Part shown: one piece after another, positions 1 to 55,244 of the stretch | How the letters are laid out: each line of letters opens with the position of its first letter | Position numbering within the stretch: the first letter of the stretch is position 1 | Assembly (NCBI GenBank): GCA_021796385.1 | Contig: JAJYXQ010000007.1 | Span: 1-64,000, forward strand | Direction: 5' to 3' | Length of the DNA: 64,000 nt | From: Thermoplasmata archaeon | Lineage (GTDB): Archaea > Thermoplasmatota > Thermoplasmata > Lutacidiplasmatales > UBA184 | Notes under the pieces: model-generated | Told to the model about the DNA's origin: nothing | The model's input: the letters and a program-made list of their open reading frames with translations, nothing else | Databases searched by the model: none | Made by a program: the position numbers and the translations under genes

Positions 1-1146
1 CTGGTAGTGGGCATTCTTGACGTGGACGGTGATGGCATAGTGCTGGCCGGCCTCAAGCTGGAGAGCATGGTCCGAAGTGACCGTGTAGGAACCACCGGGG
101 CCGGACACGGTGAAGGACACCTGAGCGGCCTTCCAGATGTTGCAGCCGTTACCGGCGCAACCCGCGGTGACCGAGTTGACAAAGAACTCCACGGGGACCT
201 TTGCCGGGGTGCTTCCTCCGAAGACGATCTGGGACCGCAGCGAAGTGAGATCCCCGTGGAAAACGTCGAGGTCCGTGCAAGTCGTGGCGGTGATCCCCGG
301 GACGGAACCACAATCGCTGGTCTGCCAGAGCGACCAGGAGCTCCAGTGACCAGTATCAGGAGAAGCAGCTCCCCAATCCGCCACCCAGAGGTGGTACTTG
401 GTCAGCGAGGGATTGATGCAATTGGAGGCATAGTTGCTGTTCATGTAGATTATCGGGACGATGTGGAAACCCTTGTGGGTCGCATAGGCCTCGACGATCG
501 TGGCCCAGGAACTGACCCAGTTCGAGAGCGAACCTGAGCTGGTGGACTGTCCGCACCCCACCTCGACGTCCAGAGCAGGGAGCATGTTCCCGCTCTTGAA
601 GTACGGTCCGGCCACACTGAGAAAATGATCGGCCTCGGCCGAGGCGCTCGTCGCAGAACAGTAATCCGCACTATCGTCGACCGGGCAGGCGAAGTCATAC
701 GCCCCCATCACCACGCCCGACGAGCGTCCACTCGCCATGTCATACCCGAAGGCCGGGTTCGTGTAGCCGGCCCCTTGGGTCGCCTTGGCAAAGGCGAACC
801 CGATCCCACTCCGGGAGATTGTCGACCAAGAAGGAAAACCATTCACGCTCGAGACATCGATCCCGTGCGCGGTACCCCCCGACAGCGGAGTGATGGATGT
901 CGCTCCGGACCCGGTGAGCGAGGTGGAAGATGACGAGCTCGTGGCCTGGGATGCCAGGGAGCCAAGAGGTCCGACGCCTGTGAAAAGCAGGGGGGTGGCG
1001 GTGGAGAGTACCACCAACCCGCTGCCTACCATCAGTAAGGCTGCGGTGAGCGCGAAGATTGCCCGGCTGGGGTCACGCGGCGAAGTGTGACCCAGCCAAG
1101 GGACCGTGCGCTCCCCGTGTAGTCGGGGTTCCCGTCCCCGTACCAT
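1..1146 (-). CDS. Secreted GH25-family muramidase (lysozyme) with C-terminal Ig-like/all-beta region; 3' end truncated by window edge
   Basis: Manual minus-strand translation from ATG at 1146: MVRGREPR...AIFALTAALLMVGSGLVVLSTATPLLF (signal/TM), then AHGIDVSSVNGFPSWSTISRSGIGFAFAKATQGAGYTNPAFGYDMASGRSSGVVMGAYDFACP...LPALDVEVGCG...KYHLWVADWG...WSSWSLWQTSDCGSVPGITATTCTDLDVFHGDL. This is the GH25 pattern (HGIDVS, FAKAT-G, GAYDFA, LDVE, LWVADW, LWQ, DLDVFHG). Open to position 1, so missing from the supplied ORF track. Confidence 0.87.
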   Translation of the reverse strand, partial: MVRGREPRLHGERTVPWLGHTSPRDPSRAIFALTAALLMVGSGLVVLSTATPLLFTGVGPLGSLASQATSSSSSTSLTGSGATSITPLSGGTAHGIDVSSVNGFPSWSTISRSGIGFAFAKATQGAGYTNPAFGYDMASGRSSGVVMGAYDFACPVDDSADYCSATSASAEADHFLSVAGPYFKSGNMLPALDVEVGCGQSTSSGSLSNWVSSWATIVEAYATHKGFHIVPIIYMNSNYASNCINPSLTKYHLWVADWGAASPDTGHWSSWSLWQTSDCGSVPGITATTCTDLDVFHGDLTSLRSQIVFGGSTPAKVPVEFFVNSVTAGCAGNGCNIWKAAQVSFTVSGPGGSYTVTSDHALQLEAGQHYAITVHVKNAHYQ

Positions 1147-1324
1147 CTTCGTACTTTCGGTTGGTCCGCTGCTCGTCATCAACCCATTCTTTCGCCGCCC
1201 AGCTATTAAAGGACGGCTGTCTCATGGGACAAAGAGGGGACAACTCGGGCCGTGGCGGTCATAGGGCCAGGAAGGCCTTCGGACGTCCCCTTTGAGCTCG
1301 AACGACGGGTAGTTCCTTCCTGTC

Positions 1325-21403: not shown

Positions 21404-23641
21404 TCACTGCAATGAGCCTTCCCAAGCGGTCTTGCGACGACGGCGCAGTGTTCCTGCGATTCCTCCGATGAGGGCAAGGAGCCCGGCCGTTCCAAGGATC
21501 CACCAATCGCTTGAACTGAACGCACTTCCGCCCGAGGACGGGGTCCCGGCTGTGGAGCCGGCGATCGTAATCGTGGTGGCCGAGGAGACGGTCTTTCCGT
21601 TCCAGTGCGCTTGGACCTCGAGCAGGACAACCCCCGCCCCGCTTCCGGTGGTGAGAACGGTGGTGCTCCCAACATCCGTGGAAAGCGAGCCGAGGGTGTC
21701 GTTCGTGGACCAGGCAAACACAATCCCCAAGGGGCAGGTCCCTCCCCCACACACCGGAACGGCGGTGAAGCGTTGGGCCTGGCCTGAGGACAGCGACACG
21801 TTCGCTGGTGTCACGGAGACGGACTCGAGAGCGACGAGGGAAGAATTCGCTTGGATCGTTACCGAGTCATTGGCCATCCGAACGGTCCCACCCAGGGTCG
21901 CCGTGACGGTGACGGTATCGATCCCGGCACTACCCCCGGCCTTGAAGGTTGCCGAGGCTCCTTTAGAGGTGTTCAATGTTCCCAATGCGGGATCCGAGAG
22001 TGCCCAGGCCAGGGAGAGCGAGGGTAGGCAGGTCCCCCCTTGGCAGACAGGGGTTGCAATGAGCCCGAGGCTACCTCCCACGATGAGTGCGGGGTTGGAA
22101 GGGCTAACGGACACCGATGACAATGTGACTGTGGGTGCCGTTATTGCGAGCATGACCGGCCCTGCGGTCTTGGTCGTGCCGTTCAAAGTCGCGTTGACGG
22201 CCAACGAGACAGTCCCGGGATTGCTTCCCGCCGTGAACGACGCAGTCCCCGGACCGGTGGGGGAAAGGGTACCTAGAGCGGTCGGGGTGACCGACCACTG
22301 ATAGCGGATGACTGCGGGGCAGGGACCCGGGGCGCACTGGGCGACAGCGGTAAGGTTTGCCGAGGTTCCGACCATGATCGATGGCGTGGAGGCCGTCAGC
22401 GCCAAGGATTGCAACGCCGTCGGCGAAGAGATCACCACGAGGGATGTGTTCCTTGTCGCCGACGCTCCACCCGCGTCCGTTACCGTGACGGTGACGTTGA
22501 AGCGGCCCGCCGCGGTCGGGACGCAGGTCAGCGCCGCAGTGTTCGCACTCGAACATCCACTAGGCAACCCGGAGTAGGCAAAATGGAGAGGGGAAGTGCC
22601 GCCCGTTGCTGTGACGTTGAGATACGTCGTCGAACTCACCGGAATGGAACTGGGGGTTGCGGCAAAGGCGGAGATTTGGAGGGGGTTCGAGACGGTCCCG
22701 TTCAGTATGTGGATGAACCGGTAGGCGTAGGCCCCTCCGAGGGTCCAGTTCGCGCCGAAGTGGGAGTTGGTATGGGCGGCTACGGTCCCGTTTCCAAGGT
22801 AGACGGCGATATGGTCCCACGTAGAGTCCGTGGAGAGCCACTGATAATTGATCACATCCCCCGGGAGAAGGTCATTCACGCTCGGGACGACCACGGCCCA
22901 TCCGTTGTTGATGAGCATGTCCCCCAGGGCGGCGTTCCCGGGCTCGCCATACGTGGGGGGTACGCGCGAGGGGATGTTGAGACCTCCGCCGGGCTGGTGC
23001 GGTTCGTCACCGATCACTTGGCTGACGAAATGGGCGCAGTCGTCCCCCGACATGTTGACCACGCTGGTGCCTTGGGCCAGGGAGACGTAGGTGCTCGAAC
23101 CGTTCCAGAAATACCCATCACTCGTGACGACATTCCAGTAGTGCGCGGCGTAGTACATGGCCGCGGTCCGGTTGTACGCGACGGTGGAGGTGGATGTCCC
23201 CGTGACGTTCTGGAGCCAAGCGGTGGTCCCCGTTCCCTCGGCCGACCATCCGGTGTGCCCGTCGGTGTAGGCGATCTCCCACCAAATGTACCCTCCGATC
23301 GAAACGCTGCCGTTCGTGATCTGCCCGAGTTGCCCGTTCGATTCCGTGGAGATGAGTGTCCCGTTCGGTGAAGGCGATGCACGGCAGTTGAGGGTCGACG
23401 CGACGACCTTGACCTCGTCTCCCACGGCGAGGCCGAAGGGGTCGCTGCTTGGATGGGAGTAGTTCGGGGAGCGAAGGGTATCGGGCGCAAGTTCCCCATG
23501 GAATACGGGCGTCGAGCCGGGCGGATAGGGGCTTCCTGTGAATGCCACGGCGATCGATGTGCCGAGGAGTACAAGTAGGACCACCATCGGGGTGACACGT
23601 GGGAGAAAGGTAGATGACAATCGACCAAAGTTGTTGTTCAT
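21404..23641 (-). CDS. Secreted/anchored protein: SH3-like region, Amidase_6-like (NlpC/P60 superfamily) domain, Ig-like repeats, C-terminal TM
   Basis: VKVVASTLNCRASPSPNGTLI...IWWEIAYTDGHTGWSAEG (SH3b-like); YNRTAAMYYAAHYWN...GDDCAHFVSQVIGDEPHQPGGG...LLPGDVINYQW...DHIAVYLGNG (Amidase_6-like); C-terminal TM then RRRRK. Confidence 0.75.
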   Translation of the reverse strand: MNNNFGRLSSTFLPRVTPMVVLLVLLGTSIAVAFTGSPYPPGSTPVFHGELAPDTLRSPNYSHPSSDPFGLAVGDEVKVVASTLNCRASPSPNGTLISTESNGQLGQITNGSVSIGGYIWWEIAYTDGHTGWSAEGTGTTAWLQNVTGTSTSTVAYNRTAAMYYAAHYWNVVTSDGYFWNGSSTYVSLAQGTSVVNMSGDDCAHFVSQVIGDEPHQPGGGLNIPSRVPPTYGEPGNAALGDMLINNGWAVVVPSVNDLLPGDVINYQWLSTDSTWDHIAVYLGNGTVAAHTNSHFGANWTLGGAYAYRFIHILNGTVSNPLQISAFAATPSSIPVSSTTYLNVTATGGTSPLHFAYSGLPSGCSSANTAALTCVPTAAGRFNVTVTVTDAGGASATRNTSLVVISSPTALQSLALTASTPSIMVGTSANLTAVAQCAPGPCPAVIRYQWSVTPTALGTLSPTGPGTASFTAGSNPGTVSLAVNATLNGTTKTAGPVMLAITAPTVTLSSVSVSPSNPALIVGGSLGLIATPVCQGGTCLPSLSLAWALSDPALGTLNTSKGASATFKAGGSAGIDTVTVTATLGGTVRMANDSVTIQANSSLVALESVSVTPANVSLSSGQAQRFTAVPVCGGGTCPLGIVFAWSTNDTLGSLSTDVGSTTVLTTGSGAGVVLLEVQAHWNGKTVSSATTITIAGSTAGTPSSGGSAFSSSDWWILGTAGLLALIGGIAGTLRRRRKTAWEGSLQ

Positions 23642-48902: not shown

Positions 48903-51900
48903 ATGAGGATGCCCCCGTACCTCTCGGTGTACGGCTTTGCCATGGCCGCCGTCGCCCTTCTCCTTGTGCCGACCGGGATCGTGTTCCACCTACCCCCCGT
49001 CCTGAACTCGACCGGTGTCGCCCACGCCCCCGATCACCCATCCACTCCCACTCACTCCCGGTCCGTGGTCCCCTCATCCGAAAATTCCCCTTCGGGTCCG
49101 CTCTATGCCGCCGAGCGTTCGCTCGCCCAGGGGGCGGGCCCGGCCTATGGTCGCCCCACTTCGTGTGCGGAGGAGGGAAGTTCTGCCCACTGTGCCCCCA
49201 CGAAGACTTCCGCCCCCCTCGCAACTCCGCCTGGGGCTGTCGGATGGAGAGAGGTGTACCCTGCGGTCCCGTCACCGCGGTCAGACGAGGTTCTCGTCAT
49301 CGATACAAAGGACAATGTCACCCTGCTCTTCGGAGGGGTGTCGGCCCAGGGGATCTACCTCGGAGATACTTGGGAGTTTCATTCGGCCTCCGCCTGTTGG
49401 CCCTACTCTAGCGCCTGCTCTTTTTTCACGAACACCGGACCTCCCGGCGGCTATTGGCAAGAGTTGAATGGAACCGTATCGCCGTCCCCCCGTGCCAACG
49501 CGAGCGCGACCTATGATCAGATGGACAACGAGGTGCTGCTCTTCGGTGGCGAGGGGCCCGGAGGCACTGCCCTTAACGATACTTGGACGTTCCAGGATGG
49601 CAACTGGACTGAGGTGAATTCTGTCGCGTCCCCGTCGGCGCGATTTGCGGCCGCGATCTCGGGAGGCAGTGATGGCCGCGCGGTCTGGGGTTCTCCCACA
49701 GGTCCGGTCGTCCTATTCGGAGGCGAGACGGCGAACGGTCGAATGCTAGGGGATACCTGGCAGTTCTCCTCCGGACAGTGGGTCAACGTGACCCCGGCCC
49801 GGAGTCCCCCACCGCGTGCGTTCTCGAGCCTGCTTTGGACCTCCGCTCCATCATTCGCCCTTTTCGGCGGGCTCGGATCGAACCACGTCGTACTTGGCGA
49901 CCTTTGGATCTGGACCTCAGATCCGCTCGGGACATGCGGGGCGAGCGGCCTTCCCACGGTATTCTGCGTTTGGCACAATGTGACGGCCAATTTCACCGGC
50001 AACCTCCCCTCCCCCCGGTATGGGATGGCGTACTCCTCGAATGGAGGCAAGCTCTACGGCGGCACGGGTCCGGGTGGGGAACTCTACGGCGACCTCTGGG
50101 ACTTCACGAACCTCGGCGGCAGCGGTACCCTCACGAACATGTCGAAGTCGGACATTCTCGTGAACCGCCCCCCTCCCCCTCGAATCGGATCGTCCCTATG
50201 CGTCCCCTCCGCCATTTATCCTGGCGGATACGAGACGATGGAAATCTATCTGTGGGGGGGCAAGAGCCCTTCCGGAGAGGCCCTTGGGGACAGCTGGACG
50301 TTGGAGCTCGTGAATTTCGGGAACAATAGCACGACGGAATACTGGTGGATCAACATGACCTCGAGCTATCAACTTCCCCAGGGACCCCCTCCCGTCACCG
50401 GGATGAGCATGGTCTACGACGACGCCGACCAGGAGGTCGTGCTCTTCGGAGGGTTCTCGGACGAGATCGATACCCTCGTTCCCCAAGGCCCTCTCAACGA
50501 CACCTGGACGTATTCGAACGGGGTGTGGACCAATGTGACCTCGTATCCGTCCCCATCCGCACGGTGGGACGCTTCGATGGCCTACGACCCCGCCGACTCC
50601 GATGTGGTCCTGTATGGCGGGATCAGTGGGACGGCGGACCCGGCGTACACTAACGACGTCGCCTTGGGGGACACCTGGACCTTCGCCGCGGGCTCCTGGA
50701 CCGATATCTCACAAATGGTCACCGTCAATGACTCCAGCCAGCCCTTCTTCGAGCAGCTTGGAATGCTTCCGCGTGGCGGGGCGTCGCTGGCGTGGGACCC
50801 GCAAGACCAGGGCCTTCTGCTGTTCGGTGGTTGGGACTCCTTGACGGGGCATTGCATATACATGGTGACCATCCTCTTGAAACCCTGCGGGGAAGCGGGG
50901 GGCACTTGGCTCTTCAGCAACGACACATGGACCCGATTGACGGCCTCCGGTCCATCCAACCGTTCGAACGCGGGGATGGTCTGGGACTACGCCGACAATT
51001 ACATGGTCCTGTTCGGAGGACTCAACGGGCAGGATTTCTACGGGCTGCGGAGCGGATTGAACCTGGGGTTCCTCGACGATACCTGGAAGTTCACGAACGA
51101 CACCTGGACCCAGTTGAACCCTACCACCCCTCCCCCCCTCGTCGGAGCCCCTCAGCTGGCGTACGACCAGAACGACCACGAGGTCATCCTCTTCGGTTCC
51201 GGGGCGCCATACCCGACCCTGTGGCCCGCCTTCCCGGGGGACCTACCGTCGACCGTCAACAACGGTACGAACGCCACGTGGGCCTTCCGCGCGGGTCAGT
51301 GGACGAACCTTTCCGCGGCGTTATCCGAAGCTCCCCCCATCTCTAACGACGGGGCGATGGTGTTCGATCAGGCGGACAACACGATCGTGTACGTGACGGG
51401 AGACACGCCACCCTACATTGCAAGCGCCGCCCCCATCCCCTCGGGGTATCCCTATTGGACGACCGTGGTGCCGTACAACTGCTACCCCACAGCGGAGAGC
51501 ATCCAACTCTTCCCAGTTTCCGGCGGCTATTGCTGGGGGACCACCTGGACGTTCGGACCTCCGCCTCTTCGTGCGCTCGCCACGGCGACCCCGGCCCAGG
51601 GGCTCTCGCCGCTCACAGTCCACTTCACGGGGGCAGCGGTGGAGGGCACGGGCCCGTACCGCTACCTCTGGAACTTCGGAGATGCCTCACCGGAGTCCAC
51701 GGCCCAGAACCCGACCCACACGTACAATGCCACGGCCATCTTCACAGCGACCCTCACGGTCACCGACAAGAACGACACGAATGCCTCCGTCCGCCTCGAG
51801 ATATCGACGCTCTGTCCAAACTCGGGGAATTTCGTCTGTGTCGTGAGTCATTATGGGGGGTACTTCCTGCATGGAATCTCCGTCCAGAATACTCTCGGGG

Positions 51901-54900
51901 TATATGCCGAGGACAACAACCAATCCGCCACGTCCGTCACCGGTACGATCGGAGGCGCAACGTACACCTTCTCCGCCCCGAAGGGCACGAATGGCGCCTG
52001 GACGGTCTCCATCGACATGGGTCAGTTGGCCCCCCGTTCCGTTCTGGATGTGACGGCAACCTTCCCGGGAGGGGGCACGCTTTCGGAGAATTACAATCTG
52101 GGGATCATCGACACTCCGTCGTGGTTGACGGATTTCTTGGGGGGAGGTCCCACGAACGCCCGGGGCCCGGGGGGAAAGGCCCCGACCCCCCATCCGGATG
52201 CGAGTTCCTCGAGTGGGGGGAAGTGGTACGCCATGTATGGCCTGGGTCGGGAGGTCGACCTTCTCCAGCTCCTGAACGCGTTCAACGTGACCGTCCCCCC
52301 CTTCATCAATACGACCAATGGCTCGTTCAAGGTGCTACCCGATTTCGGCCTCTACGTCAACTACCTTTCGAACGGGTACATCACCCTGGGGGGCTTCGTG
52401 TCCGGCACCTACAAGACCCATCCACCCCCCTCTCCCTTCCCTTCGGATGATGACCCGTTCAACGATATGCCGCAGTCCGGGCCGTCGAACAACGCGGCCT
52501 CCAGCGAGACCTTTTCGATCGCCCTGAGACTGGATGTCACGGGCACTTGGAAGGTGAACGGCACCACCGACTCGGTGGATTTCGTCTACTTCAACGTCAG
52601 CTTGCAGGTCAAGGGCAGCTTGTCCTTCGTGGTCCCGATCGAGGGCTACGCGCCACCGCAGAATGGGGTCCCCGGGGTGGGCATCTACGTCACCATCACA
52701 GTGAAGACGAATCTCTCGTTCACGTTCGTCTTTGCCCCCAATACGTCGAGGTCCGACGACATTCTGGGACTTGGCATCATGCTCAAGGCATTCATCTTCG
52801 GGATCGGTCTGACGCTTGAGGTAGTGCTCACCGCGGCGGTCGCCATCGCCTCCGTATCCGGGGGAGGGGACGTGGGGATCACGGCCCAGTTCACGGTGTC
52901 AAACAACCAGATGTATCTCTCGAAGTTCGTGCTGTCGGGACAGCTGTTCATGAGCGCTACTTTCGGGCCTTTCGGGTACACCCTCATGCTCTACTCCGGG
53001 ATCATCTGGCAATGGACGCCCTCGGGGCTCGTCCCCATACAACGGCCCGCCGCTCATCCGGCCCCGAAGACGATCGTTTCCCTCCTTCCCCGATACTGGA
53101 ACGTCACCGGTTACGACTCTCCGGTGTGGGCCAACGGGAGTTGGTCCGGTACCGCCCTCCACGATGTGTTCCCCTATACCTCTCTCTCCCTGGCTCCTTC
53201 GGCGGACGGAGCATCATTCTTGTACATGACGGACGCCGTGAACAAGAGCGAAGCCGTTGGAACTTCGATCGAGGGGTACGATCTCAACACGGCCACCCGG
53301 ACCCTCTCCTCCCTCCCGCCCCCGCCTTCGGCCGCCACGCAGGTGTTGCTCCATCCTCTCCTCCAGAATTTGTCGAACGGGACCGAGCTCGGGCTGTGGC
53401 AGGCCATCGTTCCCGCCCAGATCCAAGGCGGCCCCGCGGGCATCCGCACCGCTGCCTTGCAGGCGGATTACTACAATGCGACCACCGGCGCCTGGAGCAC
53501 TCCGAGCAACCTTACTCAAACGGGGGTGGCGCAGAGCTTTGTGTCGGCCCCTTGCGGTGGCGGTGCCGAGGTCGCTGCACTCATCGGCCCCTCGTTCGGT
53601 GCTCCCGGGCAATACGTTCAACTTTGGCGACTGAGCAGCACCGGATCTAGCCTGGTTACCAACCGGACCGTGGCATCGGTAGAGGCCCTGCAGGGGCTCG
53701 ATTGCACGACAGGCGATGTGTCCTACCTTACTCCGTCCGGTGCCCAAGGTCTCCTCAACCTGGCCTCCGGGAGTGTCATTCCGATCCCGCTCGATGTGGG
53801 GTACCATGCCGCATCGCTCGGGGCCGTGAGGAACGCTTCGGGAACCTTTGCGCTGCTTGAGATCTCCTCGAGCGGTGAGCGGGTCACCGTGTTCGACGCG
53901 GGGAGCGGCTCTGCGATATTGTCTCGGGACCTTCCTGGGAATCCTGTCTCCGTTCAAGTGGTTGGCTTCAATGGGGCCTTTTACGGTGTGATCGGGTACC
54001 GATATGGCTACACCATTGAGAACCTCTCGGATGGTCGTCTCCAAACCCCCTTCACCTACACAGGGGACATAGCGTCGCTCTCCGGGGTCGAGCAAGGCTC
54101 GTACCTGATCGTCACCACGTTGGTCAATACCGGTACTTCTTCCCGCCCCCTCCTGAACCTCCTTGTGAACGATGTCCCCTTGATCCAGGTGAGCGCCCCG
54201 GTCGTCACACCCAACCCCGCCGGTCCCGGAGCCACCGTCAACATCACCGCGACCGCAAGTTCCCCCACCCCGGTCACCGTCACCTGGAACGGTCTTCCGG
54301 TGGGTTGCACCGCGGGTACGGCGGGGACGTACTCCCTGACGTGCCCGAACCCCACTCCCGGTAGCTATACGATCTCTCTCACGGCCATGGATGCCGACCT
54401 CCACACGGTGACTGGGCCAGGCGTGGTGCTCCGCGTTCTGGCACCCACGTCTAGTTCTTCCAGCGCCGGAGGTCTTTGGGTGGACCGCCCGCTTGCGACA
54501 CTTGGGACCGTCGACCCTTCCTTCCCCACCACCTTGCTCGTCGAGGCCGGGGGTGGAAAAGGCCCCTATACGTACAATTGGTCGGGTCTTCCCTCGGGAT
54601 GCCTATCGCAGAATGCTTCCCGCATCTCTTGCTCCCCCACGACGCCCGGGACATACGCCATTTCCGTCACGGTCCGGGATACGGCGGGGCGCTCGGTCCT
54701 GAGCCCGGCAATCCCACTGGTCGTGTTCCCGGACCCGTCCGTGGCGCTCGCCATCGGGAGTTCCCCCGTGGCGGGGCAACCCTTCCTTCTCACGGGCATC
54801 GTCTCGGGGGGGATGGCTCCCTACCTCATCTCTTGGCCCCAACTCCCCACCGGTTGCCTTGCGACCAATGCCAACCCTGTGCACTGCACGCTCGCTGCGG

Positions 54901-55244
54901 GGAGCTACCCGGTCTCCCTTGAGGTCCGTGATGCCTTCGGTGTCCCGGCGTTCGAGAACACGACACTTGTGGTCGCCAAAACGCCTTCCGGGACCGGCAC
55001 GCCAACCGGCTCGGGCGGGGGCAGCGGAACTGGTAACTCCCTATGGGAGATCATCCTCCTTGGCGTGGCGATAGCCGCAGCCGCCGGGATCCTCTTTCTT
55101 GCTTACTGGCGGTGGCGACCGGGAAAGGGCCTGGCACCCCCCTCCTCTCCTCCGAGCCCTGCGGTCACCCAACCAACGGCACCATCCCCGCCACCCACGT
55201 TCTCCGTTCCCCCTCCACCACCCCCCGGAGTTCCTCCCACATGA
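48903..55244 (+). CDS. Giant Kelch-repeat surface protein with PKD and Ig modules, C-terminal TM and Pro-rich tail
   Basis: Signal-type N-terminus; many Kelch blades (VLLFGGxxxxGxxLxDTWTFxxGxWT); PKD APAQGLSPLTVHFTGAAVEGTGPYRYLWNFGDASPESTAQNPTHTY; GLPSGC...C modules; TM IILLGVAIAAAAGILFLAYW. Confidence 0.88.
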   Translation: MRMPPYLSVYGFAMAAVALLLVPTGIVFHLPPVLNSTGVAHAPDHPSTPTHSRSVVPSSENSPSGPLYAAERSLAQGAGPAYGRPTSCAEEGSSAHCAPTKTSAPLATPPGAVGWREVYPAVPSPRSDEVLVIDTKDNVTLLFGGVSAQGIYLGDTWEFHSASACWPYSSACSFFTNTGPPGGYWQELNGTVSPSPRANASATYDQMDNEVLLFGGEGPGGTALNDTWTFQDGNWTEVNSVASPSARFAAAISGGSDGRAVWGSPTGPVVLFGGETANGRMLGDTWQFSSGQWVNVTPARSPPPRAFSSLLWTSAPSFALFGGLGSNHVVLGDLWIWTSDPLGTCGASGLPTVFCVWHNVTANFTGNLPSPRYGMAYSSNGGKLYGGTGPGGELYGDLWDFTNLGGSGTLTNMSKSDILVNRPPPPRIGSSLCVPSAIYPGGYETMEIYLWGGKSPSGEALGDSWTLELVNFGNNSTTEYWWINMTSSYQLPQGPPPVTGMSMVYDDADQEVVLFGGFSDEIDTLVPQGPLNDTWTYSNGVWTNVTSYPSPSARWDASMAYDPADSDVVLYGGISGTADPAYTNDVALGDTWTFAAGSWTDISQMVTVNDSSQPFFEQLGMLPRGGASLAWDPQDQGLLLFGGWDSLTGHCIYMVTILLKPCGEAGGTWLFSNDTWTRLTASGPSNRSNAGMVWDYADNYMVLFGGLNGQDFYGLRSGLNLGFLDDTWKFTNDTWTQLNPTTPPPLVGAPQLAYDQNDHEVILFGSGAPYPTLWPAFPGDLPSTVNNGTNATWAFRAGQWTNLSAALSEAPPISNDGAMVFDQADNTIVYVTGDTPPYIASAAPIPSGYPYWTTVVPYNCYPTAESIQLFPVSGGYCWGTTWTFGPPPLRALATATPAQGLSPLTVHFTGAAVEGTGPYRYLWNFGDASPESTAQNPTHTYNATAIFTATLTVTDKNDTNASVRLEISTLCPNSGNFVCVVSHYGGYFLHGISVQNTLGVYAEDNNQSATSVTGTIGGATYTFSAPKGTNGAWTVSIDMGQLAPRSVLDVTATFPGGGTLSENYNLGIIDTPSWLTDFLGGGPTNARGPGGKAPTPHPDASSSSGGKWYAMYGLGREVDLLQLLNAFNVTVPPFINTTNGSFKVLPDFGLYVNYLSNGYITLGGFVSGTYKTHPPPSPFPSDDDPFNDMPQSGPSNNAASSETFSIALRLDVTGTWKVNGTTDSVDFVYFNVSLQVKGSLSFVVPIEGYAPPQNGVPGVGIYVTITVKTNLSFTFVFAPNTSRSDDILGLGIMLKAFIFGIGLTLEVVLTAAVAIASVSGGGDVGITAQFTVSNNQMYLSKFVLSGQLFMSATFGPFGYTLMLYSGIIWQWTPSGLVPIQRPAAHPAPKTIVSLLPRYWNVTGYDSPVWANGSWSGTALHDVFPYTSLSLAPSADGASFLYMTDAVNKSEAVGTSIEGYDLNTATRTLSSLPPPPSAATQVLLHPLLQNLSNGTELGLWQAIVPAQIQGGPAGIRTAALQADYYNATTGAWSTPSNLTQTGVAQSFVSAPCGGGAEVAALIGPSFGAPGQYVQLWRLSSTGSSLVTNRTVASVEALQGLDCTTGDVSYLTPSGAQGLLNLASGSVIPIPLDVGYHAASLGAVRNASGTFALLEISSSGERVTVFDAGSGSAILSRDLPGNPVSVQVVGFNGAFYGVIGYRYGYTIENLSDGRLQTPFTYTGDIASLSGVEQGSYLIVTTLVNTGTSSRPLLNLLVNDVPLIQVSAPVVTPNPAGPGATVNITATASSPTPVTVTWNGLPVGCTAGTAGTYSLTCPNPTPGSYTISLTAMDADLHTVTGPGVVLRVLAPTSSSSSAGGLWVDRPLATLGTVDPSFPTTLLVEAGGGKGPYTYNWSGLPSGCLSQNASRISCSPTTPGTYAISVTVRDTAGRSVLSPAIPLVVFPDPSVALAIGSSPVAGQPFLLTGIVSGGMAPYLISWPQLPTGCLATNANPVHCTLAAGSYPVSLEVRDAFGVPAFENTTLVVAKTPSGTGTPTGSGGGSGTGNSLWEIILLGVAIAAAAGILFLAYWRWRPGKGLAPPSSPPSPAVTQPTAPSPPPTFSVPPPPPPGVPPT

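Follow-up and report, generated by a model that had tools for sequence, protein, structure and literature searches.

Why would an archaeon without murein carry a gene for a wall-cutting enzyme, and does the gene at the left edge of the window (the whole 64,000-nucleotide stretch of Thermoplasmata archaeon DNA analyzed here) encode such an enzyme at all? An earlier note on this DNA had proposed an unlisted minus-strand coding sequence with its stop outside the window, a transmembrane or signal segment, and a near-complete GH25 signature. In an open reading frame listing with open ends, the minus-strand frame 1–1182 indeed contained no stop as far as the window edge, where contig C36 of the source genome (2.28 Mb, 81 contigs, 92% complete) ends as well. 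The proposed membrane or signal segment was recovered as a single N-terminal hydrophobic stretch (residues 41–67, hydropathy 2.41 over 19 residues, from hydropathy alone), while the start had to be moved: the ATG at 1146 is internal, and the ATG at 1179 is the better candidate. We preferred the latter since a TATA-like TTTAATAG stands 23 nt upstream of it and since its upstream sequence is also kept in the orthologue from DX1. By this consensus match, 1179 is the most plausible start, and the spacing would fit a leaderless archaeal transcript. The features of the left-edge gene are as follows.

1–1182, minus strand: 5′ part (394 codons of 967 aa) of a predicted exported GH25/SLT-like muramidase gene; open frame, with the 3′ part on contig C79 of the same genome (L043:1-1865)
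1203–1210, minus strand: TATA-like box TTTAATAG, 31 to 24 nt upstream of the ATG at 1179 (a consensus-type observation only)
982–1062, minus strand: N-terminal hydrophobic segment (residues 41–67), putative signal peptide or membrane anchor, by hydropathy
292–861, minus strand: GH25 catalytic domain (residues 108–297), by Pfam; same stretch in the whole-genome search; model matches 1jfx
856–858, minus strand: catalytic-site Asp109 (HGIDVS), aligned to D9 of 1jfx; invariant
562–570, minus strand: catalytic Asp205 and Glu207 (LDVE), aligned to D98 and E100 of 1jfx; invariant
271–273, minus strand: catalytic-site Asp304 (TDLD), aligned to D198 of 1jfx; invariant
1–195, minus strand: start of the first ‘CN[IV]W’ accessory repeat, running on into C79; same repeat in the C8 paralogue

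The GH25 signature proved to be full-length: the Pfam profile (PF01183) matched over positions 1–180 of 180 with E=1.9e-33 and 116.8 bits, more than four times the curated cut-off of 27. The nearest solved structure by sequence was the Streptomyces coelicolor lysozyme 1jfx (1.9e-18). We then compared an AlphaFold model of the domain (five-sequence alignment, pTM 0.75, mean pLDDT 69) with the PDB, where 1jfx again ranked first (E 1.2e-13) and the 21 fold matches at E ≤ 0.001 were all GH25 enzymes except the last two, both Rv2525c, a GH25-like protein. By structure comparison, the domain thus adopts a GH25 barrel fold. A loss of catalytic acidic residues, which the earlier note had named as fatal to its reading, did not occur: in the sequence alignment, D109, D205, E207, and D304 correspond to D9, D98, E100, and D198 of 1jfx, which we take to be the catalytic acids, and all four are invariant in 10 of 10 archaeal GH25s (paralogues and relatives). 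This supports the window gene as a GH25 muramidase with a complete set of catalytic acids and predicted activity.

To recover the sequence beyond the window edge, we used the DX1 orthologue (L008, 935 aa, from a same-genus contig and itself cut by its contig end) as a query against the archaeon’s own genome. The missing 3′ half turned up where contig C79 begins, with 97% identity to the orthologue. The two contigs, C36 and C79, share an overlap of 143 nt with a single mismatch, and L008 runs through their junction in one frame; the join rests on this overlap and the spanning orthologue, not on reads. Once joined, the frame gives a protein of 967 aa and closes with a TGA stop. GH25 makes up only its first third, and the remainder lies on C79. 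Specifically, sequence comparison resolves the hydrophobic segment (41–67), GH25 (about 105–312), two ‘CN[IV]W’ accessory repeats (residues about 347 and 480; also found in the C8 paralogue), a beta-rich module (603–737), and a C-terminal domain (746–967). Pfam identified no recognized wall-binding domain in the window gene or its C79 half.

The C-terminal domain itself had no direct Pfam match, including to the SLT model (PF01464), and we therefore call it SLT-like rather than an SLT member. That designation comes from its homologues, which are 32–34% identical in other Thermoplasmata and 65% identical in one genome of the same family: they keep the Glu, MQ, and YN.G positions common to this domain family and the SLT family, and five of seven family members match Pfam SLT (best 1.5e-5). 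The window gene’s domain has diverged too far from SLT to match the model directly, and it has AYNHG in place of the AYNAG of its relatives, while the catalytic Glu (Glu89 of the domain, Glu834 of the protein) is invariant. One homologue also carries LysM and SH3 (Pfam). A single-sequence model of the truncated domain from L008 reached a pLDDT of 33. With moderate confidence, we read this as an SLT-like domain of the lysozyme superfamily, with predicted activity. Since GH25 and this second domain lie on one joined chain, the 967-aa protein is probably a two-headed muramidase. Both catalytic domains are constrained: between the window gene with its C79 half and the DX1 orthologue, dN/dS was 0.15 for GH25, 0.11 for the SLT-like domain, and 0.45 for the first 104 residues, which shows purifying selection on both domains, albeit from small counts of changes.

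Next, we evaluated the other wall hydrolases of this archaeon. Its genome holds at least four GH25 genes (on C8, C26, C36, and C65), four lysozyme-like domains of the type found in the C8 protein, and two Amidase_6 genes, one in the window and the other on contig C80 (L060). Three loci are needed below.

21404–23641, minus strand: second putative wall hydrolase of the window, with an SH3-like region, Amidase_6 (E=3.2e-8, above cut-off), Ig-like repeats, and a C-terminal membrane anchor
L005:7029–10691, minus strand: C8 paralogue, 1221 aa, on contig C8 of the same genome
L044:6435–9986, minus strand: kumamolisin-type protease on contig C21 of the same genome, with two copies of the beta-rich module

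In the Amidase_6 protein of the window, the Cys and His motifs (GDDCAHF, WDHIAVYLG) are present; its SH3-like region and anchor were read from the sequence. The C8 paralogue comprises, in order, an N-terminal lysozyme-like domain, PKD, GH25, about six propeller-like repeats (‘GYWLV..DGGVF.FG.A.FYGS’), one ‘CN[IV]W’ repeat, the beta-rich module, and a hydrophobic end. Its lysozyme-like domain family has an invariant Glu and weak matches to SLT, SLT_3, Phage_lysozyme2, and GH124, and the C8 protein also appears to have two heads, in the opposite domain order to the window gene. This type of domain occurs in genera g1 and g3 as well and is joined with LysM or Amidase_6 in some proteins. Many paralogues end in hydrophobic segments, i.e., candidate anchors, by hydropathy. 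The earlier reading of the left-edge gene stood as far as the GH25 muramidase is concerned; it had missed the second catalytic domain, three further GH25 genes, and additional wall hydrolases of the genome, which lie outside the window, and the hydrolase at 21404–23641.

Other observations concern the surroundings of these genes. A GH25 fragment at C3:1-594 (L092) was considered as a fifth GH25 gene and set aside: it nearly duplicates the beginning of the C26 gene, is cut by the contig edge, and was taken to be a variant from another strain or a recent duplication. In both genomes, the gene after the C26-type GH25 gene (L007, L010) encodes a similar large secreted protein, which indicates a locus order conserved between species. 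In L060, L058, and L062, the lysozyme-like domain is preceded by a region ‘PVVCQACAWIGN..AF’ that may be another glycoside-hydrolase-like domain. No plasmid match was obtained in looking for a donor of the C8 propeller-like repeats. The beta-rich module, common to the window gene, C8, and the C21 protease, has no Pfam name; a PDB profile search gave weak antibody light-chain matches only, and the module is at most a generic beta sandwich on this basis. The window also encodes several very large putative surface proteins, one of which (48903–55241, plus strand, 2113 aa) combines kelch-type propellers and PKD.

Taken together, the product of the left-edge gene is likely a murein hydrolase that is exported and probably bifunctional and that would act with its paralogues on neighboring bacteria. 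In such a mechanism, the N-terminal hydrophobic segment would carry the chain over the membrane, and the two ‘CN[IV]W’ repeats and the beta-rich module would hold or position the enzyme. GH25, with its acidic residues at the mouth of the barrel, would cut the MurNAc-GlcNAc bond of bacterial peptidoglycan, and the SLT-like domain would cut that glycan a second time. Its partners would be the other GH25 proteins (three or more), the lysozyme-like proteins, and the Amidase_6 proteins. Many of these partners appear fixed to the surface by a C-terminal hydrophobic segment. Neighboring bacteria may be lysed or digested at close range, and the archaeon would gain by killing competitors, by feeding, or both.

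This reading presupposes that the gene belongs to an archaeon, and contamination of the archaeal bin by bacterial DNA would be one objection, given that the nearest orthologue sits in a MAG titled ‘bacterium’ (DX1.bin10). That MAG, however, falls in the same archaeal genus by genome-set grouping, other relatives of the window gene come from MAGs titled Thermoplasmata archaeon, and all 20 GH25s of the archaeon’s family form one clade (100/100). Contig C36 itself carries archaeal proteasome alpha, SBDS, archaeal-type topoisomerase I (TopA), and TPI; the contig is archaeal, as the earlier note had assumed in calling the muramidase archaeal, and not the bacterial one that would have overturned its reading. 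A search for PBP transpeptidase found none in this genome (the control search was positive in ten bacteria), and a wall substrate in the host is unlikely for that reason. With archaeal markers present and PBP transpeptidase absent, the producer is an archaeon without murein. Marker genes, MAG grouping, and the lack of PBP transpeptidase make contamination very unlikely, and the marker genes on the contig refute it in practice. The gene might instead descend from a captured phage endolysin or prophage remnant, as GH25 domains are common in phage endolysins, and 68 phage records match this GH25, the best at about 32% identity among the matches listed. Yet no viral relative of either the GH25 or the SLT-like domain was confirmed in 2.9 million viral contigs, no closely related GH25 was found in an archaeal virus or provirus, and cellular genes flank the window gene. 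Membrane segments, multidomain chains of 900–1200 aa, and several paralogues also argue against a phage enzyme, and a phage remnant is highly improbable. In the GH25 tree, the window and C8 genes are sisters (98/97), and all Thermoplasmatota GH25s but one group together, against eight bacterial or phage sequences only.

If the enzyme is the archaeon’s own, its target and benefit can still be read differently. It could act on glycans of the archaeon’s own envelope rather than on murein, which would suit both the many paralogues anchored at the archaeon’s surface and the lack of a recognized peptidoglycan-binding domain in the window protein. GH25 is a lysozyme family, however, and relatives carry wall-associated domains (LysM, SH3, Amidase_6). 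The distribution is also patchy, which argues against a housekeeping role: of 390 genomes in the phylum, 20 carry GH25. All five genomes sampled from the genus have it, as do all four from genus g3, while almost none were positive in the other genera of the family (the GH25 of G020, a genome with 7% contamination, was left out as evidence for genus g7). We consider an envelope role quite improbable. A feeding enzyme, which would digest dead bacterial biomass alongside secreted acid proteases rather than serve as a weapon, is more probable but still unlikely as the main role. The beta-rich module shared with the kumamolisin-type protease points to extracellular digestion, and a nutritive role was also raised for the Aciduliprofundum enzyme by Metcalf et al. 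(PMC4241558). Against it, several paralogues are surface-anchored rather than free, and MurQ was not found in the archaeon’s genome. MurQ being the usual enzyme for MurNAc use, its absence leaves full use of MurNAc as food unsupported, while peptides and GlcNAc would still be usable. Sequence does not tell killing from feeding, and the exported murein hydrolase that we favor may be antibacterial and nutritional alike.

The set of wall hydrolases as a whole suggests that these archaea attack or digest bacteria. More speculatively, and with considerable doubt on our side, the genus might be a wall-digesting predatory archaeon whose contact-dependent attack would combine displayed and secreted muramidases, lysozyme-like enzymes, amidases, and GH25+SLT-like chains in two orders. 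Archaeal weapons against bacteria are only beginning to be recognized. To these, the locus contributes a lineage whose genomes each hold several different wall hydrolases and whose chains include two-headed ones. Should the enzymes prove active, they may represent new antibacterials, and it would become directly testable if archaea kill the bacteria of their communities or eat them.

Archaeal GH25 muramidases are already known, while the GH25+SLT chain and the arsenal look like a new variety of them. The literature searched, in partial coverage, yielded no description of an archaeal GH25+SLT chain. 1jfx, the best match by sequence and fold, has the same acidic residues, yet it is a single-domain structure that is 28% identical in the fold alignment, compared to a multidomain chain here. 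Strock et al. (2025, PMC12352652) reported that some 5% of archaeal genomes encode peptidoglycan hydrolases, named Thermoplasmatota as one of the prominent groups, and showed two Halogranum enzymes to kill bacteria. The window protein resembles these as a predicted secreted wall-cutting enzyme in an archaeon but differs in having no recognized wall-binding domain, which some of its relatives do have. As that survey required such a domain, it would probably miss the window protein. A close precedent is the bacteria-killing GH25 muramidase of Aciduliprofundum boonei (Metcalf et al. 2014, PMC4241558), likewise from an archaeon of the class Thermoplasmata without murein, and a likely Aciduliprofundum genome (G051) also has Amidase_6, SH3, and a C-terminal hydrophobic segment. 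In contrast, the window family forms its own clade, with PKD/Ig-like or ‘CN[IV]W’ domains and several paralogues per genome, and the window protein adds a second, SLT-like catalytic domain, as predicted from its homologues.
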